Assembly (NCBI GenBank): GCA_016867855.1
Contig: VGIO01000003.1
Location: 1 to 49,791 of the forward strand
DNA: 49,791 nt
Origin: Calditrichota bacterium
Lineage (GTDB): Bacteria > Electryoneota > AABM5-125-24 > Hatepunaeales > Hatepunaeaceae
Direction of reading: 5' to 3'
Below, in pieces: positions 372 through 25,833 of the stretch. The notes under the pieces are model-generated. The model was not told the origin of the DNA and ran no database searches. It was given only the letters and a program-made list of their open reading frames with translations. How positions within the stretch are numbered: the stretch's first letter is position 1; each line of letters starts with the position of its first letter. The position numbers were made by a program, and so were the translations under genes.

Positions 372-1583
372 ATGATGAGCCTACTTACAGGCAGGCGCAT
401 TCTTTTGGGTGTAACGGGTGGGATCGCGGCTTATAAAGCGGTTTATTTAACGCGGGAAATTGTGCGCGCCGGTGGCGAAGTCCGCGTCTTAATGTCCGCG
501 GCGGCTAAGAAGTTCGTTGCTCCGTTGACCTTTTCGACGCTGACCGGGCATCCGGTTCTGGATGAAATGTTCCCTGACCCTGCGCCGGTCGACCCGGTGC
601 ATTTATTGCCGGGACAATGGGGCGATATTTTTGTCATCGCGCCGGCGACAGCCGATTTCATCGGAAAAGTCGCTAACGGACTTGCCAACGATATACCCTC
701 GGCCGCCGCGATGGCGTTTCGAGGTCCAATACTATTAGCCCCGGCGATGAATCCCCGGATGTGGAACAACTCGGCAGTGCAGGATAATGTCGCCCGGCTG
801 CGCTTAAGAGGCTTGCATTTCATCGGACCTGAGCGCGGTGATATGGGAGGCGTTCACGAGCAAGCCGGCATCGGTCGGATGAGCGAGCCGGCAGCGATCT
901 TCGACCGCATCGAAGAATTGCTCTATCCCGATAAATGTTGGATGAATCGCCGCGTTGTAGTAACTGCCGGCGCGACCTGCGAACCGTTTGACCCGGTGCG
1001 CTTCATCTCCAATCGTTCCAGCGGTAAAATGGGCGATGCCGTCGCCCGTCAAGCCAGATTGATGGGCGCCGAGGTTTTCCTGATTCGGACAAACTCGGCT
1101 ATTGGCGAGCCGCCGTCCGGCGTCGAAATTATAAAGGTCGATACTGCGGCTGAAATGGCCGATGCCGTAAAAGCCCTGTTTCCGACCGCTGACCTGCTGA
1201 TTATGGTGGCGGCTGTGGCGGATTGGCGGGCTAAAACTGCCAGCGCTGGTAAAATTAAAAAACATACCGGCATCCTCACTCTCGAATTAGAGCCTACCGA
1301 AGATATTTTACTTTGGGCAGGTAAAAATCGGCAAGAACAGGTAATCGTCGGCTTCGCGCTGGAAACCGACGACCATATCGTCAACGCCCGGCGCAAATTA
1401 GAAGATAAAAATGTCGATATAATCGCGCTAAACGACCCGACGAGCGCTGATTCTGTCTTCGGCGGCGATTCGATTAGACTGACCATCTTGAAAACTTATT
1501 GTGAGCCGCTCGAATTGCCGGCTATGTCCAAACGGGAAGCAGCAGCGAGACTATTAAGCGAGGCGTATGGGTATCTTAAATAA
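372..1583 (+). CDS. coaBC: Bifunctional phosphopantothenoylcysteine decarboxylase / phosphopantothenate-cysteine ligase
   Basis: CoaBC makes 4'-phosphopantetheine from 4'-phosphopantothenate and cysteine in cytosolic coenzyme A synthesis. The 403 residues match the full two-domain length. The N-terminal flavodoxin-like CoaC domain (about 1-185) has GVTGGIAAYKA (13-23), a candidate catalytic His77 in VDPVH, and the substrate-clamp motif APAMNPRMW (123-131). The CoaB domain (about 190-400) has TAGATCEPFDPVRFISN followed by SSGKMG (216-221) and a KIKK motif. Odd point: the flap that usually reads ACGxxGxGRM is VHEQAGIGRM (161-170), so the cysteine position is His. Two ATGs start the gene; a GAT-rich tract (338-350) lies just upstream, between rpoZ and this gene. 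Confidence 0.95.
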   Translation: MMSLLTGRRILLGVTGGIAAYKAVYLTREIVRAGGEVRVLMSAAAKKFVAPLTFSTLTGHPVLDEMFPDPAPVDPVHLLPGQWGDIFVIAPATADFIGKVANGLANDIPSAAAMAFRGPILLAPAMNPRMWNNSAVQDNVARLRLRGLHFIGPERGDMGGVHEQAGIGRMSEPAAIFDRIEELLYPDKCWMNRRVVVTAGATCEPFDPVRFISNRSSGKMGDAVARQARLMGAEVFLIRTNSAIGEPPSGVEIIKVDTAAEMADAVKALFPTADLLIMVAAVADWRAKTASAGKIKKHTGILTLELEPTEDILLWAGKNRQEQVIVGFALETDDHIVNARRKLEDKNVDIIALNDPTSADSVFGGDSIRLTILKTYCEPLELPAMSKREAAARLLSEAYGYLK

Positions 1584-1666
1584 ACCTGTGCAGCGAGCGG
1601 TTATTGCCGACAGCCGATATTCATAATGGACTGAGGTAATTGCAAAAGTGTTGGATTTATTAACTG

Positions 1667-2512
<846 letters not shown>

Positions 2513-2579
2513 TGCCGATGAAATCCAAGTTCCTGGCTGGCCGGAAATTCTCTATCGTCGGTTGAAATGGAATTGACCT

Positions 2580-4046
2580 ATGGCTGAAGACCAAACCGAA
2601 ACCCGCCGCGTCCGACGCAAAACAACCAAGCCTTCTAAAGACCTTATTGCTGGACGCGTTCCGCCGAATAGTCCCGAGATGGAGCGCGCCGTGCTGTGCG
2701 CCGCCCTAATCGATCCCAACGGGATGACGAAGGTCGTCGATGTTCTGACGGAGCGTAGTTTTTACGACCGCCGGCATCAAGTCATCTTCGCTGCGATGCT
2801 GCGCCTGTTCCAGCAGGCGGCGCCCATCGACATTCTAACTGTCAGTGAGGACCTGCGTCAGCGGAACGAATTGGAGGTGGTCGGCGGCGATGCTTATCTG
2901 GCGCAGTTGAGCGGCGAAGTCGCCACCTCGGCGCACGCTGAACATTATGCGCGCATCGTGCAAGACCGCTATGCGCTGCGCGAGTTAATCCATCAGTCGA
3001 CCAAGTTTGCCGAGGAAGCATTCGAGGTTCCCGATGCTGCGGAACTGCTCGATCGTGCAATGGGGATGTTGTATGATATATATTATCGCCGGCGCAGCGG
3101 CGGCTTTGAACCTCTACGGCAGGTCGTCAATCAGACCTGGGAGTTCTTGGACAGCCAGCACCGCAAGCGCGACCAAAAACTCACCGGCGTCGGCACCGGC
3201 TTCGAACGACTCGACGAGTTGACCAGTGGATTTCAGAATGGCGAGTTGATAGTCATTGCCGGCCGGCCTTCGATGGGCAAAACGGCTTTCAGCCTCGACC
3301 TGGCGCGCAACGCCTGTTGGCTGCATCAAGTCCCGGTCGCCTATTTCTCGCTGGAGATGGCCGCGATGGCGATATGCCTGCGGATGTTAGCGGCTGAAGC
3401 CCGCATCGAACATCACCGCATCCGCACGCCTTATCGATTGAATGAGTCGGAATGGCCATTAGTCGCGCAGACGGCCGGCAGGCTGGCTGAAATGCCATTT
3501 TTCATCGATGACACCGGCAATTTAGGTCTCAACGAGCTGCGCGCCCGCGCCAGAAGGCTCAAGCAGCAGCATAACATCGGCATCATTTTCATCGACTACC
3601 TGCAATTGATGCAGCCGCCTAAAGCCGACAACCGCGAGCAGGAAGTCGCGCAAATTTCGCGTTCACTGAAGGGTTTGGCGCGCGAATTGAATATACCGGT
3701 CGTTACGATGTCCCAGTTGTCGCGCGCTGTCGAACATCGCGGCGGCGATAAAATCCCCCAACTCGCCGACCTGCGCGACTCCGGCGCCATCGAGCAGGAC
3801 GCTGATGTCGTGATGTTCATCCACCGCAAGAAACAATATAAGAGCGGTCTGGAAGAGGAAGACGACGGCGAAGCGGTCGATAACACCGCCCATATCATCA
3901 TACGCAAGCAGCGCAACGGTCCGACTGGCGCCGTCGAATTGATCTTCAACGATGTCTATACCCGCTTCGAAGAGAAAGAGAGCGCCGACTATGTCCCGGT
4001 TCATTACGCCAAATCCGGCGCAGCCGAAGAACCCGCGCCGTTCTAA
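2580..4046 (+). CDS. dnaB: Replicative DNA helicase DnaB
   Basis: DnaB is the hexameric ATP-dependent helicase that unwinds DNA ahead of the replisome and binds primase. The 488 residues are of normal size with a basic N-terminal extension of about 25. The N-terminal collar domain (about 30-135, starting PPNSPEMERAVL) is followed by a linker and a RecA-like domain from about 200: Walker A GRPSMGKT (228-235), FSLEM, Walker B IIFIDYLQLM, then MSQLSRAVEHR and DLRDSGAIEQDAD, which holds the arginine-finger region. There is no intein. ATG start at 2580, with no clear Shine-Dalgarno. It is followed by a low-complexity spacer before the (p)ppGpp synthetase gene. Confidence 0.97.
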   Translation: MAEDQTETRRVRRKTTKPSKDLIAGRVPPNSPEMERAVLCAALIDPNGMTKVVDVLTERSFYDRRHQVIFAAMLRLFQQAAPIDILTVSEDLRQRNELEVVGGDAYLAQLSGEVATSAHAEHYARIVQDRYALRELIHQSTKFAEEAFEVPDAAELLDRAMGMLYDIYYRRRSGGFEPLRQVVNQTWEFLDSQHRKRDQKLTGVGTGFERLDELTSGFQNGELIVIAGRPSMGKTAFSLDLARNACWLHQVPVAYFSLEMAAMAICLRMLAAEARIEHHRIRTPYRLNESEWPLVAQTAGRLAEMPFFIDDTGNLGLNELRARARRLKQQHNIGIIFIDYLQLMQPPKADNREQEVAQISRSLKGLARELNIPVVTMSQLSRAVEHRGGDKIPQLADLRDSGAIEQDADVVMFIHRKKQYKSGLEEEDDGEAVDNTAHIIIRKQRNGPTGAVELIFNDVYTRFEEKESADYVPVHYAKSGAAEEPAPF

Positions 4047-4196: not shown

Positions 4197-6374
4197 TTGC
4201 CTCGCTCGACGGCTGCACGACAATTCACGGCGGAAAAGAACCGACTCCTTAATAAACTAAAAAGTTATCACCGCCGCTGGAATCCGGACCTCATTACGCG
4301 CGCGTTCGACTTCGCAGCGCACATTCACCGCGAGCAAAAAAGGCAATCCGGCGAGCCTTATTTTATGCATCCGCTGGCTGTGGCTAACATTCTGGTCGAA
4401 CTGAAATCGGACTATATCGCCGTCGCCGCCGGTCTGTTGCACGATGTCGTCGAAGATTCGAGCGTTACCATCGACGACTTGCAGGAACAGTATGGTTCCC
4501 AAGTCGCATTGTTAGTCGATGGCGTCACAAAAATCGGTGAGCTGCGGTTTCGCTCTTGGGAAGAGCAGCAAGCCGAGTCGATTCGCAAGATGCTGTTGTC
4601 GATGCTGAAGGACATTCGCGTCATTCTGATAAAGTTCGCCGACCGTCTGCACAATATGCGCACAATACAGGCGCTGCCGGAGGCTTCCCAGCGCCGCATC
4701 GCGCTCGAGACGCGCGATGTTTACGCTCCGCTGGCGCACCGTTTGGGCATCGCCCGCATCGCCCGCGAGATGGAAGACCTGGCTTTACAAGCGCTTGACC
4801 AAGTGGCTTATGCAGAAATTTCCAACCGGATTGCCGTGTCGAAAGAAGACCGGCAGAATATCATCGACGAGTTCATCCGGCCGGTGCGCCGGGAACTTAA
4901 ACGCATTGGTATCCCGACTGAAATCGACGGTCGAATTAAGTCTGTCGCCAGTATTTATAATAAAATCAAATGCCAAGGCCGCCAGTTCGACGAGATCCTC
5001 GACCTGCTCGCCATCCGCATCATCGTGCAGGAAAAAGAGGAATGCTATCGGGCGTTGGGCGTCGTTCATGAATTGTTCACGCCGGTTACCGAGCATTTCA
5101 CCGATTACATCGCCCTACCCAAATCCAACCTCTACCAATCGCTGCATACCAAGGTGCGCGACAACCAAAATCGCATCGTAGAGGTGCAGATTCGCACTGA
5201 AGAGATGCACTCTATCGCCGAAAACGGCATTGCTTCCCACTGGCGCTACAAAGCAGGCGAGACCAAGCCGGATGAACTGGACGAGCATTTCACCTGGATA
5301 AGGTCGCTGATGGAGGCACAGCAAGAGGCGGCAGCAACCGGCGAATTTATGGAATCCCTAAAAATCGACTTGTTTCAGGATGAGATTTTCGTTTGGACTC
5401 CCAAAGGTCAATTAACTCAATTGCCGCGCGGCGCTACGCCCATCGATTTTGCCTTCGCTATTCACAGCGATATTGGGCTGCACGCCATCGGCGCCAAAGT
5501 CAACGGCAAAATCGTGTCGCTGAGCCACCTGCTGGAATCCGGCGATGCTCTGGAAATCCTGACTTCGCCGCGCGCCCGGCCTAACGCTGAATGGTTGAAA
5601 TTTGTGCGCACTTCGCGCGCCCGCAACCGCATTAAACGTTGGTTTCACGACACACGCTACGACGAGTCCATCCGCTTGGGCGAAGAACTAATTTCAGGCG
5701 AATTAGTTCGGCTCAGGCTGCCCTCGGACAATGGCGGAATCGATGAAATCGCCCTTTCGTTCGGATATAAAGAGAAGACCGACTTCTATTCAGCCGTCGG
5801 TTCAGGACAAATAACCCTCGGACAGGTGATGCGCAAACTCGTGCCGCGTGTAGCCCAAGGCAAAGAGGGTCTAATCAGCCGCATCATCCAGCGCGTCGAC
5901 GGCGAACGCGGACTTAGAATCGGCGACCTGGATAATTTAGTCGTGAAAATCTCCGGCTGCTGCAGTCCTCTGCCCGGCGACCCGATAATCGGTTTCCAGA
6001 TCCCCGGCCAAGGCGTGCGCATTCACCGCACCGATTGCAGTCTGATTGCCGGCTTGCTGGAAGATGAGCGCAAAATCATCAATGTGGCTTGGGATGTCGA
6101 AAAAGACGATCGCTTCAAAACTAAAATAAGAATTGTCGCTGACGACCGTCCTAATCTGCTGCGCGACATCACGCAAGCCATCGGCGCTCTGAAGGTCAAT
6201 ATCGTGCGGGTCGAGTTTCATATCGAAGATAATCTGACTATCGGCACGATGGAAGTCGAAGTCGCCAATCTTCCACACTTGACGAAATTGATTGGACGCA
6301 TCAATAACATCCGGGCGATATTGCGGGTGGAAAGAATGGATGTCGCGGTTAATTCAGAAATGGTTAAAGTATAA
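4197..6374 (+). CDS. relA: RelA/SpoT-family (p)ppGpp synthetase/hydrolase
   Basis: This long RSH protein (725 residues) makes and degrades the stringent-response alarmone (p)ppGpp. The hydrolase domain has the HD signature HDVVEDS (82-88) and upstream His58 in MHPL. Its metal-binding motifs appear intact, so it may be bifunctional rather than synthetase-only. The synthetase domain (about 235-360) includes RIKSVASIYNKIK and the later EVQIRTEEMHSIAENG. A TGS domain (about 395-455), a zinc-finger-like segment with KISGCCSPLPGD, and a C-terminal ACT domain (about 645-720) follow. The predicted start is TTG at 4197, with no visible Shine-Dalgarno. The stop overlaps the ruvX ATG by one base (TAATG), indicating translational coupling. 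Confidence 0.95.
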   Translation: MPRSTAARQFTAEKNRLLNKLKSYHRRWNPDLITRAFDFAAHIHREQKRQSGEPYFMHPLAVANILVELKSDYIAVAAGLLHDVVEDSSVTIDDLQEQYGSQVALLVDGVTKIGELRFRSWEEQQAESIRKMLLSMLKDIRVILIKFADRLHNMRTIQALPEASQRRIALETRDVYAPLAHRLGIARIAREMEDLALQALDQVAYAEISNRIAVSKEDRQNIIDEFIRPVRRELKRIGIPTEIDGRIKSVASIYNKIKCQGRQFDEILDLLAIRIIVQEKEECYRALGVVHELFTPVTEHFTDYIALPKSNLYQSLHTKVRDNQNRIVEVQIRTEEMHSIAENGIASHWRYKAGETKPDELDEHFTWIRSLMEAQQEAAATGEFMESLKIDLFQDEIFVWTPKGQLTQLPRGATPIDFAFAIHSDIGLHAIGAKVNGKIVSLSHLLESGDALEILTSPRARPNAEWLKFVRTSRARNRIKRWFHDTRYDESIRLGEELISGELVRLRLPSDNGGIDEIALSFGYKEKTDFYSAVGSGQITLGQVMRKLVPRVAQGKEGLISRIIQRVDGERGLRIGDLDNLVVKISGCCSPLPGDPIIGFQIPGQGVRIHRTDCSLIAGLLEDERKIINVAWDVEKDDRFKTKIRIVADDRPNLLRDITQAIGALKVNIVRVEFHIEDNLTIGTMEVEVANLPHLTKLIGRINNIRAILRVERMDVAVNSEMVKV

Positions 6375-6856
6375 TGATTAATGCTGATGCTGATGTTTAT
6401 GCTGATGCTGATGCAGATGTGAAGTTTGATGGGGCTATTTTGGCGGTGGATTATGGTTTGAGGCGCTGCGGATTGGCGGTATGCGACACCGAGCGGCGGC
6501 TGGCGGTCGGCATTGGCGTGTTGACAGGCTTAGCCGGCCGGGCTTTGACCAGGGCGGTAAAGCGCGAGGCAGAACTGCGTCGGATTAATGAAATTGTCGT
6601 CGGACTTCCTTGTGCGAGCGGTGCCAGCGGCTGCGCAGCCGCCGCTGGCGCAGAACGCCTTAGCCAAGCCTTGGGAAAAAGCGGAATGATTGTGCATCGC
6701 TGGAATGAAGCCTATAGCACAGCCGAAGCGCTGTCCGCAAAACGCCATTACGGCAATAGCCATAATAAACCGCGCGGCTGGGAAGATGAGGCTGCTGCGG
6801 TGTTAATATTGCAAAACTATTTGGACTGGCTGAAGAATAAACAGGAAAAGTCGTGA
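6374..6856 (+). CDS. ruvX: RuvX/YqgF-family RNase H-fold nuclease
   Basis: The YqgF/RuvX family has an RNase H fold and is linked to 16S rRNA 5' processing and Holliday-junction resolution. Visible motifs are ILAVDYGLRRCGLAV, with the first catalytic Asp; VVGLP; RWNEAYSTAEA, replacing the usual DERxTTxxA but keeping the Glu; and WEDEAAAVLILQNYL, with the last Asp. An alanine-rich loop (GASGCAAAAG) replaces part of the usual linker. The first 15 residues are an Asp-Ala repeat encoded by GCTGAT units. A GTG at 6419, just before the core, is an alternative start that would skip it. The gene is coupled to relA upstream (TAATG) and overlaps the next gene by four bases (GTGA). Confidence 0.88.
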   Translation: MINADADVYADADADVKFDGAILAVDYGLRRCGLAVCDTERRLAVGIGVLTGLAGRALTRAVKREAELRRINEIVVGLPCASGASGCAAAAGAERLSQALGKSGMIVHRWNEAYSTAEALSAKRHYGNSHNKPRGWEDEAAAVLILQNYLDWLKNKQEKS

Positions 6857-7908
6857 GTAAAAAGAATATATCCGAGGATACTCCGCGTCAAGCCGAGAGT
6901 TCAAAATCGAACTTCAAGAAGGTAATCCGGTTTGGCGTAGTCGGCGCCGGAGGTATTTCACAGGTCGCGCATTTACCCAACTTACGGCAGGAGACTGGCG
7001 TCGAATTAGTAGCCCTGTGCGACAGCGACCCGCAGCGCGCCGCTTTAGTCGCCGAGCGGTTCAATGTGCCGGTCTGGTTCGACGAGCCGGACGCGATGTT
7101 CCGCCATACCAAACTCGACGCGGTCATCATCGCTGCGCCGACCATAACGCATCCGGCGCTCTGCCGCCTGGCGCTGGAAAGCGGCGTCGATGTGATGCTG
7201 GAGAAGCCCTTCGCCCGCACACCGGAAGAAGCCCGTTCCATCGTCGATTCGGTCGTCCGCACCGGTAAGAAGTTGATGGTGGCGATGAACCACCGCTTCA
7301 GACCGGATACCTTGCATTTGCAGCGCCTCATCCAAAAGGGCGAACTGGGCGAAATCACAATGGTGCGCGCCGGTTGGCTCAAACGTCTGGGCGTCTGGGG
7401 AAGGCCATATTGGTTCACAGATCCGAAACTTTCCGGCGGCGGTGTATTGTTTGATTTAGCGGTGCAGATGATAGATTTGGCGTTGTTTCTGCTGGGTTTT
7501 CCGGCGGCGTTGGAAGTCGCCGCCGGCATATCCAGCAAGACGCTGGAATTGGAGGTCGAAGACTCAGCGGCTATCTTTATACGATTGGCGGATGATATTC
7601 CCTTTCTATTGGAAGTCGCCTGGGCGAACTGCGACGACCACGACAAAGCCTATACCTGGATATCCGGCACGCACGGCGTCGCGACGCTCAATCCGCTGCG
7701 CATCACACGTCGGCAAGCCGACCAAACGATGAAGGTTAAACTGCCGTCTTTTGGCGACGAAGTCAAATTATACCAAAATTCGTTCCGCGCTGAGTTGGCT
7801 TATTTTATCGATTGCGTCCGCAAACAGGAGCAGCCGTTATCCACTGCGGCTGAAGCATTGCAGGTAACCGAATTGATAGCCAGTTTATCCAAAGCCGGCG
7901 GACGGTGA
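6853..7908 (+). CDS. Gfo/Idh/MocA-family NAD(P)-dependent oxidoreductase
   Basis: 351 residues with an N-terminal Rossmann domain. It has the dinucleotide-binding motif GVVGAGGISQVAHLPNL, an acidic residue at the end of the second strand (ALCDSDP), IIAAPTITH, and the family's catalytic-lysine signature EKPFA in VDVMLEKPFARTPEEA. The C-terminal alpha/beta domain follows (MVAMNHRFRPDT onward). Members oxidise or reduce sugars, inositols and related polyols; the substrate cannot be read from sequence. GTG start overlapping the ruvX stop; its own stop overlaps the lnt start (GTGA). Its position beside lnt and bamD suggests a cell-envelope role, but that is inference only. Confidence 0.9.
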   Translation: MSKKNISEDTPRQAESSKSNFKKVIRFGVVGAGGISQVAHLPNLRQETGVELVALCDSDPQRAALVAERFNVPVWFDEPDAMFRHTKLDAVIIAAPTITHPALCRLALESGVDVMLEKPFARTPEEARSIVDSVVRTGKKLMVAMNHRFRPDTLHLQRLIQKGELGEITMVRAGWLKRLGVWGRPYWFTDPKLSGGGVLFDLAVQMIDLALFLLGFPAALEVAAGISSKTLELEVEDSAAIFIRLADDIPFLLEVAWANCDDHDKAYTWISGTHGVATLNPLRITRRQADQTMKVKLPSFGDEVKLYQNSFRAELAYFIDCVRKQEQPLSTAAEALQVTELIASLSKAGGR

Positions 7909-9425
7909 AACTATTTCCGCCTCAACCGCGTCTCATTGCAGCCACAGCCGGCGCCGCGCTGGCTCTCGCCGCGCCGCCGTTGAACTTATATTTTTTAGCG
8001 TGGATTGGGCTTCTGCCGTTGATGTATTCGATATCACGAAATCCACGCGGCGCTTTCGGACAGGGCTTTGCCGCCGGTTTTATTTTCAATGTCGGCGTTC
8101 TTTATTGGCTGGCTTTGAACGATGGAACGCATTGGGCGGTGGCGACGCTGTCGATGTTAATTACGGTTTTTATTTTAGCCGCGGCTTGGGGAACAGCCGC
8201 GTGGATATTTGGCTGGCTGTTCAGGCGCTTAGGCGCGGCGGCGTTTTTAGCGCTGCCGTTTTCCTGGACGGCGTGGGAAGGTTGGTTAGGTCATCTTGGT
8301 GAAATCAGTTTCCCCTGGCCGCTGCTTGCATTGACGCAGGACGGTTTCGCGCCGATTTTACAAATAATGGAATTCACCGGTGTCTGGGGAGTTTCGTTCT
8401 GGGTCGCCGCGCTCAATACGGCGATTTTCTTTATCTGGCGAAATGAAACGCGAACTCAGCGCTGGTTCGGATTTGCCGGATTAGGTCTGTTGAGCCTAAT
8501 CCCCTTCATAGCCCAATGGCATGCCTATTCGCATTACGATATAAAATCTCCAACCGCCTGCATTATGGTCGTGCAGGGCAATATTAAGGCGGAAGATAAA
8601 TGGATTAAGGGCGGCGATTATAGTTATGTTATATATGATTCGCTGACACGTTTAGGCGCTGAGTCGGGCGTTGATTTGGCGGTCTGGCCTGAAACGGCAA
8701 TTCCAGAAAATCTAATGTATCACGTTTTCACGCAGGAGCGCGTCGGTCGGTTGGCTGACGAGACCGGCGCGGCGATTATCACCGGCGCGTCAGATTATAT
8801 ACGTCTGGAGAGCCGTTCCCGTCCTCTCAATGCGGCGTTTCTAATACTGCCGCGCCAAGGTATCGTTGACCGTTGCGCTAAGCGGCAGTTAGTCCCGATG
8901 GGCGAGCGCGTGCCTTTTCAATGGCTCATCCCGTCGCTGGGCAATCTGAACTTTGGACAGGCGGAGTTTATGTCCGGCCCGCAACCGGTTGTCTTCAAAG
9001 TCCCATTAGGCCGCGACACCCTGCGGTTTCCAACGCTGATATGCTACGAATCGGCATTTCCCAATTTGACGCGGGATTTTGTCCAGTGCGGCGCTAATTT
9101 TCTGACCGCTATTTCCAACGACGCCTGGTATGGCAGGAGTTCCGAGCCGGCGCAGATAACGGCGCTCAGTCGCTTCCGTTCTATTGAAACGCGGCGGGCG
9201 ATGGCACGGGCTTCCAATACAGGCTACTCCTTCCTCTGCGACCAATTGGGGCAGATAGTTGCACGCACGAAACTTTTCGAGGCGGCTTGGACGGCCGCGA
9301 TACTGCCGCTATGTTCCGAAACCACCTTCTATGTTCGCTTCGGCGACTGGCTACTCGTCCTAGCTTTTATCGGCTATATCGGATTTCTTTGCTGGGGCTT
9401 TTTCAAATGTCGAAAGAATGTTTAA
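7905..9425 (+). CDS. lnt: Apolipoprotein N-acyltransferase
   Basis: Lnt transfers the third acyl chain onto the N-terminal cysteine of lipoproteins at the periplasmic face of the inner membrane. The 506 residues comprise an N-terminal bundle of hydrophobic helices (about 10-205), a nitrilase-like periplasmic domain (about 215-465) and a last transmembrane helix (about 478-500). The catalytic triad is visible: Glu263 in WPETAIP, Lys326 in CAKRQLVPMGERVP, and Cys380 in LICYESAFP. GTG start, overlapping the oxidoreductase stop by four bases; its TAA overlaps the next ATG by one base. The lipoprotein BamD is encoded just downstream. Confidence 0.95.
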   Translation: MKLFPPQPRLIAATAGAALALAAPPLNLYFLAWIGLLPLMYSISRNPRGAFGQGFAAGFIFNVGVLYWLALNDGTHWAVATLSMLITVFILAAAWGTAAWIFGWLFRRLGAAAFLALPFSWTAWEGWLGHLGEISFPWPLLALTQDGFAPILQIMEFTGVWGVSFWVAALNTAIFFIWRNETRTQRWFGFAGLGLLSLIPFIAQWHAYSHYDIKSPTACIMVVQGNIKAEDKWIKGGDYSYVIYDSLTRLGAESGVDLAVWPETAIPENLMYHVFTQERVGRLADETGAAIITGASDYIRLESRSRPLNAAFLILPRQGIVDRCAKRQLVPMGERVPFQWLIPSLGNLNFGQAEFMSGPQPVVFKVPLGRDTLRFPTLICYESAFPNLTRDFVQCGANFLTAISNDAWYGRSSEPAQITALSRFRSIETRRAMARASNTGYSFLCDQLGQIVARTKLFEAAWTAAILPLCSETTFYVRFGDWLLVLAFIGYIGFLCWGFFKCRKNV

Positions 9426-10033
9426 TGAGTGACCGCAATATTTCAACCTCATTATTATTAGCAGTATTAGTCATTAGTCATCTTATTCTGCCTAATATTA
9501 TTGAAGCAATATCTCTCTTACCGTATGCTGATGGGATTCTGGGAGAGTGTTTGACGGCCGGTAATTATGATGAGTTGCAGCAGATTGGTGGACACAGCGG
9601 ACAATTTGGACAATATGCGCGCGACGACTTGTCGACAGTCTTTCTTAATCGGACTGCAAGGAAGCCAAGTTCTTCATTTGCACTTAACTGTTGCCAATAT
9701 CATTGGAACTATAACATATTAATGGGGTCAGAATATAGCGTCTCCTCTCCCTCCGTTTGCGGGGGGATGAAAGGGGGGTGTAATGACTATTTGATAACCT
9801 CCCCCCTTACTCTCCCCCGCAAACGGGGGGGAAAAGACAATTACACAGCAAACTATATTCCACCCTCATCAATATATGGAATTAATGGAGCATTAACAGC
9901 CGCGCCGCCAGATTCGGCTAAATCTTTTATTAGTCATCAATCAAATATCGCCAGTCAATACCTAGTTCCGGCTGCTATAACCATCGGCGCCGGATTAATC
10001 GTCTATTTAATTTACGCAACGCGAGGTCGTTAG
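9425..10033 (+). CDS. Small membrane protein of unknown function carrying a GC-rich hairpin repeat
   Basis: I do not recognise this 202-residue product. It starts at the ATG overlapping the lnt stop (TAATG) and its end overlaps the bamD GTG, so it is coupled on both sides, which favours a real gene. An N-terminal hydrophobic segment (about 9-32) looks like a signal peptide or anchor. A second hydrophobic helix lies near the C-terminus (QYLVPAAITIGAGLIVYLIY). The middle (about residues 106-138) is encoded by a long inverted repeat (9742-9835) of the same G/C-run type found elsewhere in the window, and the frame stays open through it. The conserved part is probably only the two ends. Confidence 0.5.
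   Translation: MSDRNISTSLLLAVLVISHLILPNIIEAISLLPYADGILGECLTAGNYDELQQIGGHSGQFGQYARDDLSTVFLNRTARKPSSSFALNCCQYHWNYNILMGSEYSVSSPSVCGGMKGGCNDYLITSPLTLPRKRGGKDNYTANYIPPSSIYGINGALTAAPPDSAKSFISHQSNIASQYLVPAAITIGAGLIVYLIYATRGR
9742..9835. repeat. Long G/C-run inverted repeat inside an open reading frame
   Basis: The left arm CCTCCGTTTGCGGGGGG and following ATGAAAGGGGGGT pair with ACCTCCCCCCTTACTC and CCCCCGCAAACGGGGGG on the right. Each arm resembles the ACACCCCCCTTCATCCCCCC/GCAAGCGGGGGG core of the 99-bp element at 13171, 10778 and 25677, so this looks like two diverged copies in opposite orientation. It lies within the gene between lnt and bamD. Confidence 0.75.
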
Positions 10034-10777: not shown

Positions 10778-10963
10778 AATCATCATCCCGCACCGCGGTG
10801 CAACGTAAGATGAAAGGACACCCCCCTTAATCCCCCCGCAAGCGGGGGGAGAAGCGAGCATCAGTCGCAAGCGGGGGGAGAAGCAAGCATCAGTCGCAAG
10901 TGGGGGGAGAAGCAAGCATCAGTCGCAAGCGGGGGGAGAAAGCGCATCTATTTTCCGAGTAAT
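10778..10963 (+). repeat. 99-bp element expanded to four 29-bp units (186 bp)
   Basis: It begins AATCATCATCCCGC and ends CGAGTAAT, as do the copies at 13171 and 25677. The G-run unit CGCAAGCGGGGGGAGAAG plus GAGCATCAGT-type spacer is repeated at exact 29-bp spacing, giving 99 + 3 x 29 = 186 bp. It begins one base after the bamD stop codon. It resembles a tandem array, not a CRISPR: there are no unique spacers. Confidence 0.9.
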
Positions 10964-11012: not shown

Positions 11013-12888
<1,876 letters not shown>

Positions 12889-12937
12889 ATGACTAAAATC
12901 TCAAACACCAAGCACTTAAGCACTCAAGCACATTTCA

Positions 12938-14170
12938 ATGCGCGTCCTAATCGCTGTCGGACACAGCGGTATCTATGCCGGCGGGGCGCATCAGGCGCTC
13001 TACAGCCTAATCGGACTTAAGCGGGAAGGCGTCGAAGTTGGGGCGGTTTGGGGTCCCGACGCCGAGAACGACCCTCACGGTTTCGACCGCTTGAAAGAGT
13101 TGGATATTCCCTTTTGGATCCTGCCGATTCACCGCAAGCCGGACTGGCGAAATATAAGGGCTTTCAGAAGAATCATCATCCCGCTGCGCGGTGCAACCGA
13201 AGATGAAAGGACACCCCCCTTCATCCCCCCGCAAGCGGGGGGCGAAAGCGCGTCTATTTTTCGAGTGATATTGCAGGAATTCAAGCCGGATGTGGTCGAA
13301 GCGGTTAAATCCGGCGCGCAGTATTATACGCTGACTGCCGGGATAGGTTTAAACCGGCACGCGCTTGTATTCTACCGCGGTATCAGCCGGCCGATGGATT
13401 ATTTTCAGGAATTCAAATACCGGCTTAAACGAGTCGATAAAATCATCGCTAATTGCCGCGATTTGAAAGAGATTATGACGCGAAGCGGGCGGATTCCAGT
13501 CGAAAAGGTCGAGGTTGTGCCTGGCGAGTTCGACCCAGCTTGCAGTGAGCCGGACCAGGTCGATGCGAGCGGATTGCGCTCCGAGATGGGAATATCAGAC
13601 GGAGTTCCCGTCATCATCCAATTGGGGAATTATGCGTCCTGGCGCGGTCAGGTGTTTACCCTCAAGGCTGCTAAGATACTTAAAAACCGCGGCTATCGGT
13701 TTCATCTGGTATTCTGCGGGCGGGAGACCGATGTTCTAAAGCCTCTGGTGAAGGAACTAGGATTGAACGAATGCGTTACCCTGTCGCCGTATCGGCGCGA
13801 CCCGCAGCGGGTGCTGAAAATGTCCAACATCGCTGTCAATGCCTCCACTGCTAACGAGAGCCTGCCCGGCTCGCTGCTGAACATTCAGGCGATGGGCGTG
13901 CCGGCAGTAGCGACGACTATGCCCGGCGCGAGCGAAATTGTCGAAGATGGCGTTACCGGCTGGCTTGTTCCTCCCGGCGATGTTGAAGCCCTGGCTGACC
14001 GGTTAGCGAGGCTGCTGGCGCTGCCCAAGGCAGAAAGACAGGAATGGGGAAAACGCGCTTATGCCCGGGCGCATCGTCTTTTCTCTTCCGAAAGCCGGAC
14101 GGCAAAACGTTTGAAAGTCTATCGACAAGCGATTGAAATTCGCAAATTGAAAAATGAGGGAACAAAATGA
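12938..14170 (+). CDS. Glycosyltransferase family 4 carrying an in-frame repeat insertion
   Basis: A 410-residue GT-B-fold sugar transferase. The N-terminal domain starts MRVLIAVGHSGIYAGGAHQAL. The C-terminal donor-binding domain has VIIQLGNYASWRGQVF, VTLSPYRRDPQRVLKMSNIAVNAS and NIQAMGVPAVATTMPGASE, then IVEDGVTGWLVPPGD. The second Glu of the usual E-x7-E motif is Asn. Residues about 78-110, between AFR and VILQEFKPDVV, are encoded by a 99-bp mobile-type repeat that is intergenic elsewhere in the window; 99 is divisible by three and no stop occurs. The donor and acceptor are unknown; a lipopolysaccharide or exopolysaccharide role is plausible next to an MsbA-like exporter. Its TGA overlaps the next ATG (ATGA). 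Confidence 0.88.
   Translation: MRVLIAVGHSGIYAGGAHQALYSLIGLKREGVEVGAVWGPDAENDPHGFDRLKELDIPFWILPIHRKPDWRNIRAFRRIIIPLRGATEDERTPPFIPPQAGGESASIFRVILQEFKPDVVEAVKSGAQYYTLTAGIGLNRHALVFYRGISRPMDYFQEFKYRLKRVDKIIANCRDLKEIMTRSGRIPVEKVEVVPGEFDPACSEPDQVDASGLRSEMGISDGVPVIIQLGNYASWRGQVFTLKAAKILKNRGYRFHLVFCGRETDVLKPLVKELGLNECVTLSPYRRDPQRVLKMSNIAVNASTANESLPGSLLNIQAMGVPAVATTMPGASEIVEDGVTGWLVPPGDVEALADRLARLLALPKAERQEWGKRAYARAHRLFSSESRTAKRLKVYRQAIEIRKLKNEGTK
13171..13269 (+). repeat. 99-bp element, single-unit copy within a coding sequence
   Basis: It runs from AATCATCATCCCGCTGCGCG to TTTTTCGAGTGAT and matches the intergenic copies at 10778 and 25677, with one G-run unit only. In the glycosyltransferase frame the other copies would read ACC-TAA or ACG-TAA after GGTGCA; here the codon is GAA. 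The internal core forms a CCCCCCGCAAGCGGGGGG hairpin. Confidence 0.92.
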
Positions 14171-25617: not shown

Positions 25618-25677
25618 TCATTCCGGACGAAGTGAAGAATCTTGTTCAGGATGAGATTTTTCACTTCGTTTGGAGGA
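25618..25677. repeat. GAACGAAGTGAAG-type hairpin repeat, copy 2
   Basis: TTCCGGACGAAGTGAAGAATC pairs imperfectly with GATTTTTCACTTCGTTTGGAGGA. It abuts the 99-bp-type element that begins at 25677. Confidence 0.7.
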
Positions 25678-25833
25678 ATCATCATCCCGCTGCGCAGTGC
25701 AACCTAAGATGAAAGGACACCCCCCTTCATCCCCCCGCAAGCGGGGGGAGAAGCGAGCAACAGCCGCAAGCGGGGGGAGAAGCGAGCAACAGCCGCAAGC
25801 GGGGGGAGAAAGCGCATATATTTTACGAGTAAT
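25677..25833 (+). repeat. 99-bp element expanded to three 29-bp units (157 bp)
   Basis: It begins AATCATCATCCCGCTGCGC and ends TTTTACGAGTAAT. Three G-run units at 29-bp spacing give exactly 99 + 2 x 29 = 157 bp. It is intergenic, downstream of tpiA. In the frame used by the coding copy at 13171 it carries a TAA. Confidence 0.9.

Follow-up and report, generated by a model that had tools for sequence, protein, structure and literature searches.

How does a glycosyltransferase gene come to carry, within its reading frame, a repeat that elsewhere in the same DNA lies between genes? The question is raised by a 49,791-nucleotide stretch from a Calditrichota bacterium (contig VGIO01000003.1; the whole stretch is called the window below). 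An initial annotation, made from the sequence alone, had proposed that a 99-bp mobile-type element stands in frame inside such a gene, that its copies at 10778 and 25677 lie between genes, and that the arrangement resembles the Rickettsia palindromic elements (RPEs). Our analysis indicates that the repeat is very probably a non-autonomous mobile palindromic element, whose short form survives in genes because it is tolerated, being free of stop codons and a multiple of three in length. The window belongs to a draft genome of 3.1 Mb in 294 contigs (94% complete). Its named relatives are Calditrichaeota bacterium AABM5.125.24 and Candidatus Hatepunaea meridiana, of which the latter is classified within Candidatus Electryoneota. 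The host is an uncultured lineage of the AABM5-125-24/Candidatus Electryoneota type, in the Fibrobacteres-Chlorobi-Bacteroidetes (FCB) group.

The gene at 12938-14170 (plus strand) encodes a GT-B family glycosyltransferase (GT4-like) of 410 residues, as indicated by its orthologues, by a Pfam match to Glycos_transf_1 (PF00534, E 1e-29) and by Foldseek, in which the best matches were the GT-B glycosyltransferases 7mi0 and 3c4q (probability 1.00). Orthologues in other genera are 54-62% identical and align over the full length, and the upstream ABC transporter synteny is kept in several of them. The 99-bp copy lies exactly at 13171-13269 (plus strand) in a compatible frame; it encodes IIIPLRGATEDERTPPFIPPQAGGESASIFRV, and the 410-codon open reading frame (ORF) is open throughout. 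AAT-type triplets stand at both ends of the unit, so that the net gain relative to the orthologues is 96 bp or 32 residues, and not the 33 residues that the 99-bp unit had suggested.

The idea that all orthologues might carry the segment can be set aside, because it is missing from all seven of them, which represent seven other genera of the family, while both flanking halves align. In the six complete orthologues, FRR, FRK or FRS is followed directly by IL, II or AM...F, whereas here FRR is followed by 32 residues and then ILQEF. The alignment is gapless on either side (FRR|IL), removal of the net 96 bp leaves FRR-I-LQ, and the predicted empty site reads AGAAGAATATTG. In an AlphaFold model based on six sequences, with a predicted local distance difference test score (pLDDT) of 78.9, residues 72-105 had a pLDDT below 50 and lay between helices 70-76 and 107-115, so the insert is predicted to be disordered within the N-terminal domain. 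Judging from the gapless alignment, the orthologues should have a single unbroken helix here, ahead of the PDVVE strand. The insert would therefore bulge from a helix and extend no loop; the predicted structure places it within a helix and not in a pre-existing loop. Translation of the insert would be marked by the peptides GATEDER and TPPFIPPQAGGESASIFR. Just upstream of the gene, at 12861-12890, stands a GATGAT microsatellite, and similar CAT/ATG trinucleotide runs adjoin repeats at other places in this genome (L117, L013).

A whole-element search of the 3.1-Mb genome yielded about 43 near-full matches (best E 4e-46, most below 1e-16), and a separate search with the core gave about 40 clear matches. 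Since copies break contigs, the copy number is a lower bound. The core 18-mer occurs three times in the window against an expected 0.01, and this count together with the genome-wide matches excludes chance recurrence. The exact DNA pattern had no match elsewhere among 84,980 GTDB species genomes, and the whole element was absent outside the window's genome in a search of 39 genomes of the phylum; several of the other genomes in that search share only the GC-rich hairpin core (roughly query positions 34-89). Within what could be searched, the whole element thus appears confined to this species.

The copies fall into size classes. The short form (11 of the approximately 43 copies) measures 99 bp with a net insertion of 96 bp, whereas the remaining 32 or so contain extra 29-bp units similar to CCGCAAGCGGGGGGAGAAGCAAGCAACAG, giving lengths of about 128, 157 and 186 bp. 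To this longer class belong the two other copies in the window, both on the plus strand: one at 10778-10963, which begins right after the stop codon of the upstream gene, and one at 25677-25833, between convergent genes. They are intergenic and carry TAA, as first noted, but they are not 99-bp copies. The element begins with ARKAATCRTCATCCC and terminates with CTATTTTCCGAGKAAT, and conservation drops sharply beyond both ends. The termini are conserved as AGKAAT...GAGKAAT, with AGKAATCRTCATCC and CTATTTTCCGAGKAAT as the bounding end sequences. AAT stands at both ends; the glycosyltransferase copy keeps it at the 5' end but has GAT at the 3' end, where the consensus is AAT. No terminal inverted repeat of the kind found in DDE-type miniature inverted-repeat transposable elements (MITEs) was seen; instead, the ends share the direct AGKAAT motif.

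The consensus fold of the 11 short copies contained two hairpins with 30 pairs in total, with weak covariation support. In the glycosyltransferase gene, the main hairpin spans 13205-13261 on the minus strand and has an 8-bp GC stem, CCCCCCGC-TT-GCGGGGGG, extended by AAAATA/TATTTT arms; the second, small hairpin lies at 13175-13197 on the same strand. The bottom-strand RNA of this copy folds with a z-score of -2.5. The element thus has the stable hairpin that is characteristic of RPE-like elements.

Whether a copy can be read through depends on the strand. On the antisense strand, one frame (I-x-RKIDALSPPACGGMKGGVFSSYVAPRSGMMI) is without stops in most copies, and ATG codons occur downstream of a G-run. 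In the sense frame, which is used by the glycosyltransferase, a census of 38 copies found TAA in 27, TAG in one, GAA in seven, AAA in two and CAA in one at the critical codon. The initial annotation had ascribed the intact frame to a single-base difference at this codon. The comparison of copies confirms that GAA at 13199-13201 (plus strand) replaces the TAA found in most other copies, including the intergenic ones at 10806-10808 and 25705-25707, but the coding copy is not alone in carrying GAA. Because several other copies carry the same codon, we rejected GAA as a repaired stop and regard it as a subfamily polymorphism. It is this shared variant that made the glycosyltransferase copy usable in the sense frame.

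A genome-wide search for the insert revealed four further in-frame insertions (C41, C12, C57 and C70), all antisense and all of the 99-bp class. In C41, a 921-residue patatin/POTRA/Omp85 protein, the insert lies mid-protein in an interdomain linker, where its relatives align without it; most of these are visibly shorter. In C12, a 649-residue lipoprotein, the copy stands between the n- and h-regions of the signal peptide (MKLNLILKSI-[insert]-TLGMLLLAWGC), whereas seven orthologues have normal, short, uninterrupted lipoprotein signal peptides. In C57, a 284-residue protein, the signal peptide MKSTALTQFVKHITAAAFLLS-I-PSYAQ is split by the copy and becomes canonical (MKSTALTQFVKHITAAAFLLSIPSYAQ) once the 32 residues are removed; in the only relative with a good match, the N-terminus has diverged too far for this to be confirmed. 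In C70, the element is preceded by an ATG overlapping the upstream stop and followed by a lipoprotein h-region; its start codon is uncertain, as is that of C146, which has an N-terminal copy. Pfam recognised no domain in the C12, C57 and C70 proteins. Apparent genic ORFs were discarded on C91, C178, C85 and C14, where 29-bp units make up short spurious frames, and also on C99, C140 and C136, where they represent start sites extended upstream.

Genic copies were thus confined to the 99-bp class: five of the 11 short forms against none of the approximately 32 long forms, with a hypergeometric chance of 4.8e-4 that all five would be short in this post hoc test. As the coding fraction is about 0.87 (estimated from the window), genic copies are strongly depleted, which points to purging of harmful insertions.

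One might ask whether the assembler had stitched a repeat into these genes, as this is a draft assembly of 294 contigs and several copies lie at contig ends. However, the insert has a half of the same glycosyltransferase on either side within one unbroken 410-codon frame, the patatin/Omp85 protein is likewise continuous, and a typical read would be longer than the element; an artefact is extremely improbable. The insertions might also sit in inactive, drifting genes with accidentally open frames, given that the insertion in the glycosyltransferase splits a helix and two others break signal peptides. Yet frames of 410, 921 and 649 codons are open inside and outside the insert, every genic copy is stop-free with a length divisible by three, and the glycosyltransferase aligns over its full length with its orthologues. 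We therefore consider gene inactivation very improbable.

Domestication would instead mean that an insert was kept since the added segment, or a start codon or n-region supplied by the element (MKGGVFSSYVAPRSGMMI), alters function or localisation. This proposal fits the position of three insertions, two within signal peptides and one immediately ahead of a lipoprotein h-region, as well as the antisense ATG codons after the G-run; judged by sequence alone, MKGS...RRGMMITLGMLLLAWGC in C12 would make a plausible lipoprotein signal. In contrast, the target genes are unrelated to one another, the insert of the glycosyltransferase is predicted to be disordered, and the remaining short copies in genes retain 87-91% identity to that of the glycosyltransferase, which indicates little change since insertion. 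Domestication is accordingly quite unlikely, and tolerance of a mobile element accounts better for the inserts. Spread by recombination or replication slippage instead of transposition was also considered, because the expansion of the internal 29-bp units is slippage-like and the GC-rich core occurs widely in the phylum without the rest of the element. This remains an unlikely route, as copies at unrelated, scattered sites with sharp conserved termini fit the insertion of a discrete unit.

Scattered unrelated sites, sharp ends and absence from orthologous genes together make a non-autonomous mobile element the best reading. Under the proposed mechanism, the palindromic repeat family would have spread through the genome by insertion at AAT-containing sites, mobilised in trans by some enzyme, with AAT either duplicated on insertion or present as a shared terminal triplet. 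The antisense short form is open in one frame in most copies and the sense form only in the minority without TAA or TAG at the one codon. An in-phase landing would then add some 32 disordered residues to the protein, presumably translated and tolerated rather than beneficial; the protein could stay functional and the allele survive, while out-of-frame and long-form insertions in genes would be purged. Several points weigh against this reading. No autonomous partner was found, and a REP-associated tyrosine transposase (RAYT; REP, repetitive extragenic palindrome) was rejected as partner since each of the two Y1-type transposase (Y1_Tnp) genes is flanked by another repeat. Mobility is deduced from copy number and from orthologues that are 54-62% identical, rather than from a strain-level empty site. 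Moreover, the enrichment of short forms was calculated after seeing the data, and the translation starts of C70 and C146 are in doubt.

Other repeats also occur in genes of this genome. A second, different palindromic repeat with about a dozen or more further copies lies in frame in the gene at 9425-10033 of the window, between lnt-like and BamD-like genes (residues approximately 94-150, GSEYSVSSPSVCGGMKGGCNDYLITSPLTLPRKRGGKDNYTANYI); no orthologue of this gene was found in the family, so that insertion is not proved. The hydrogenase maturation protein HypF (L117 (C175), 461-3175) has, between its zinc-finger and YrdC domains, about 49 extra residues that consist of a hairpin core and a serine microsatellite and are missing from the solved HypF structure 3vth. 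A 1503-residue 4-alpha-glucanotransferase/alpha-amylase fusion (L116 (C30), 4542-9050) contains, in its N-terminal part, the hairpin core and after it tandem repeats of PAFPPYLQSGE. Finally, a RAYT-like transposase gene (L064 (C242), about 105-611) lies among arrayed GGAGGACAGGCGTCCCTGCCTGTC repeats, one of which supplies the last codons of the gene.

These insertions represent an independent and apparently sequence-unrelated case of selfish DNA tolerated inside proteins, found in an uncultured lineage of the FCB group. With several target genes, insert-free orthologues and a length-class control, they offer a natural experiment on how proteins, and even signal peptides, absorb about 32 residues. 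A bolder proposal, which we consider doubtful, is that this lineage outside the Rickettsiales has several unrelated palindromic repeat families recurrently written into its proteins, with the antisense element serving as a portable coding module, able also to break up or rebuild signal peptides and to provide start codons. If true, repeat insertion would keep generating protein variation in a bacterium that is not known to be an obligate symbiont.

Intragenic palindromic repeats are already known from well beyond Rickettsia (PMC3733652, PMC2229807). The RPE-like behaviour that was initially proposed is supported, in that the element is multi-copy, occurs both between genes and in frame within them, and is absent from orthologues, although its favoured coding orientation is the opposite strand. 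RPEs are likewise hairpin-forming repeats of about 100-150 bp with many copies, intergenic as well as in frame in unrelated conserved genes, to which they add a short peptide (PMC10969869, PMC2229807; Ogata 2000, 2002). The present element differs from them in phylum and apparently in sequence, in its two hairpins and internal 29-bp unit variation, and in a host not known to be obligately intracellular with a reduced genome. Furthermore, only about 10% of its copies are genic, against nearly half of the first-reported RPE copies, those of R. conorii (PMC10969869).

The Correia/NEMIS elements of Neisseria show a similar division into a short, stop-free, gene-fused class and a longer intergenic class: 107-bp elements lie in frame in genes and 155-bp elements are intergenic (PMC2229807), compared to 99 and 128 bp or more here. 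Correia elements, however, have 24-bp terminal inverted repeats and, in the long class, an integration host factor motif. The enterobacterial RU-1, RU-2 and RU-3 are MITE-like repeats whose open frames have become fused with genes, and RU-2 contributes to a signal peptide (PMC2759123, PMC2229807), whereas our element has a different sequence and different ends and interrupts pre-existing signal peptides. REPs tagged with GTAG or CGTC, likewise short palindromes, occur inside genes in several phyla; AATCGTC stands at one end of some copies of our element, and CGTC REPs similarly have no dedicated transposase (PMC3733652). Yet REPs are 20-40 bp long, and those of the CGTC type have an unpaired terminal CGTC, a stem of 8-9 bp that begins with AT and a CCA tail. 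The unit here is 99 bp long, CGTC is a minority variant (CATC is commoner) and the GC stem beside the tag has 4 bp, and a CGTC-tagged REP was rejected on these grounds. A GTAG REP mobilised by a RAYT does not fit either, given the other repeats that flank the two Y1_Tnp genes. Hence, the phenomenon is a known one, but the sequence family appears new, and its tag, its size or its lack of terminal inverted repeats set it apart from the REP and MITE types.
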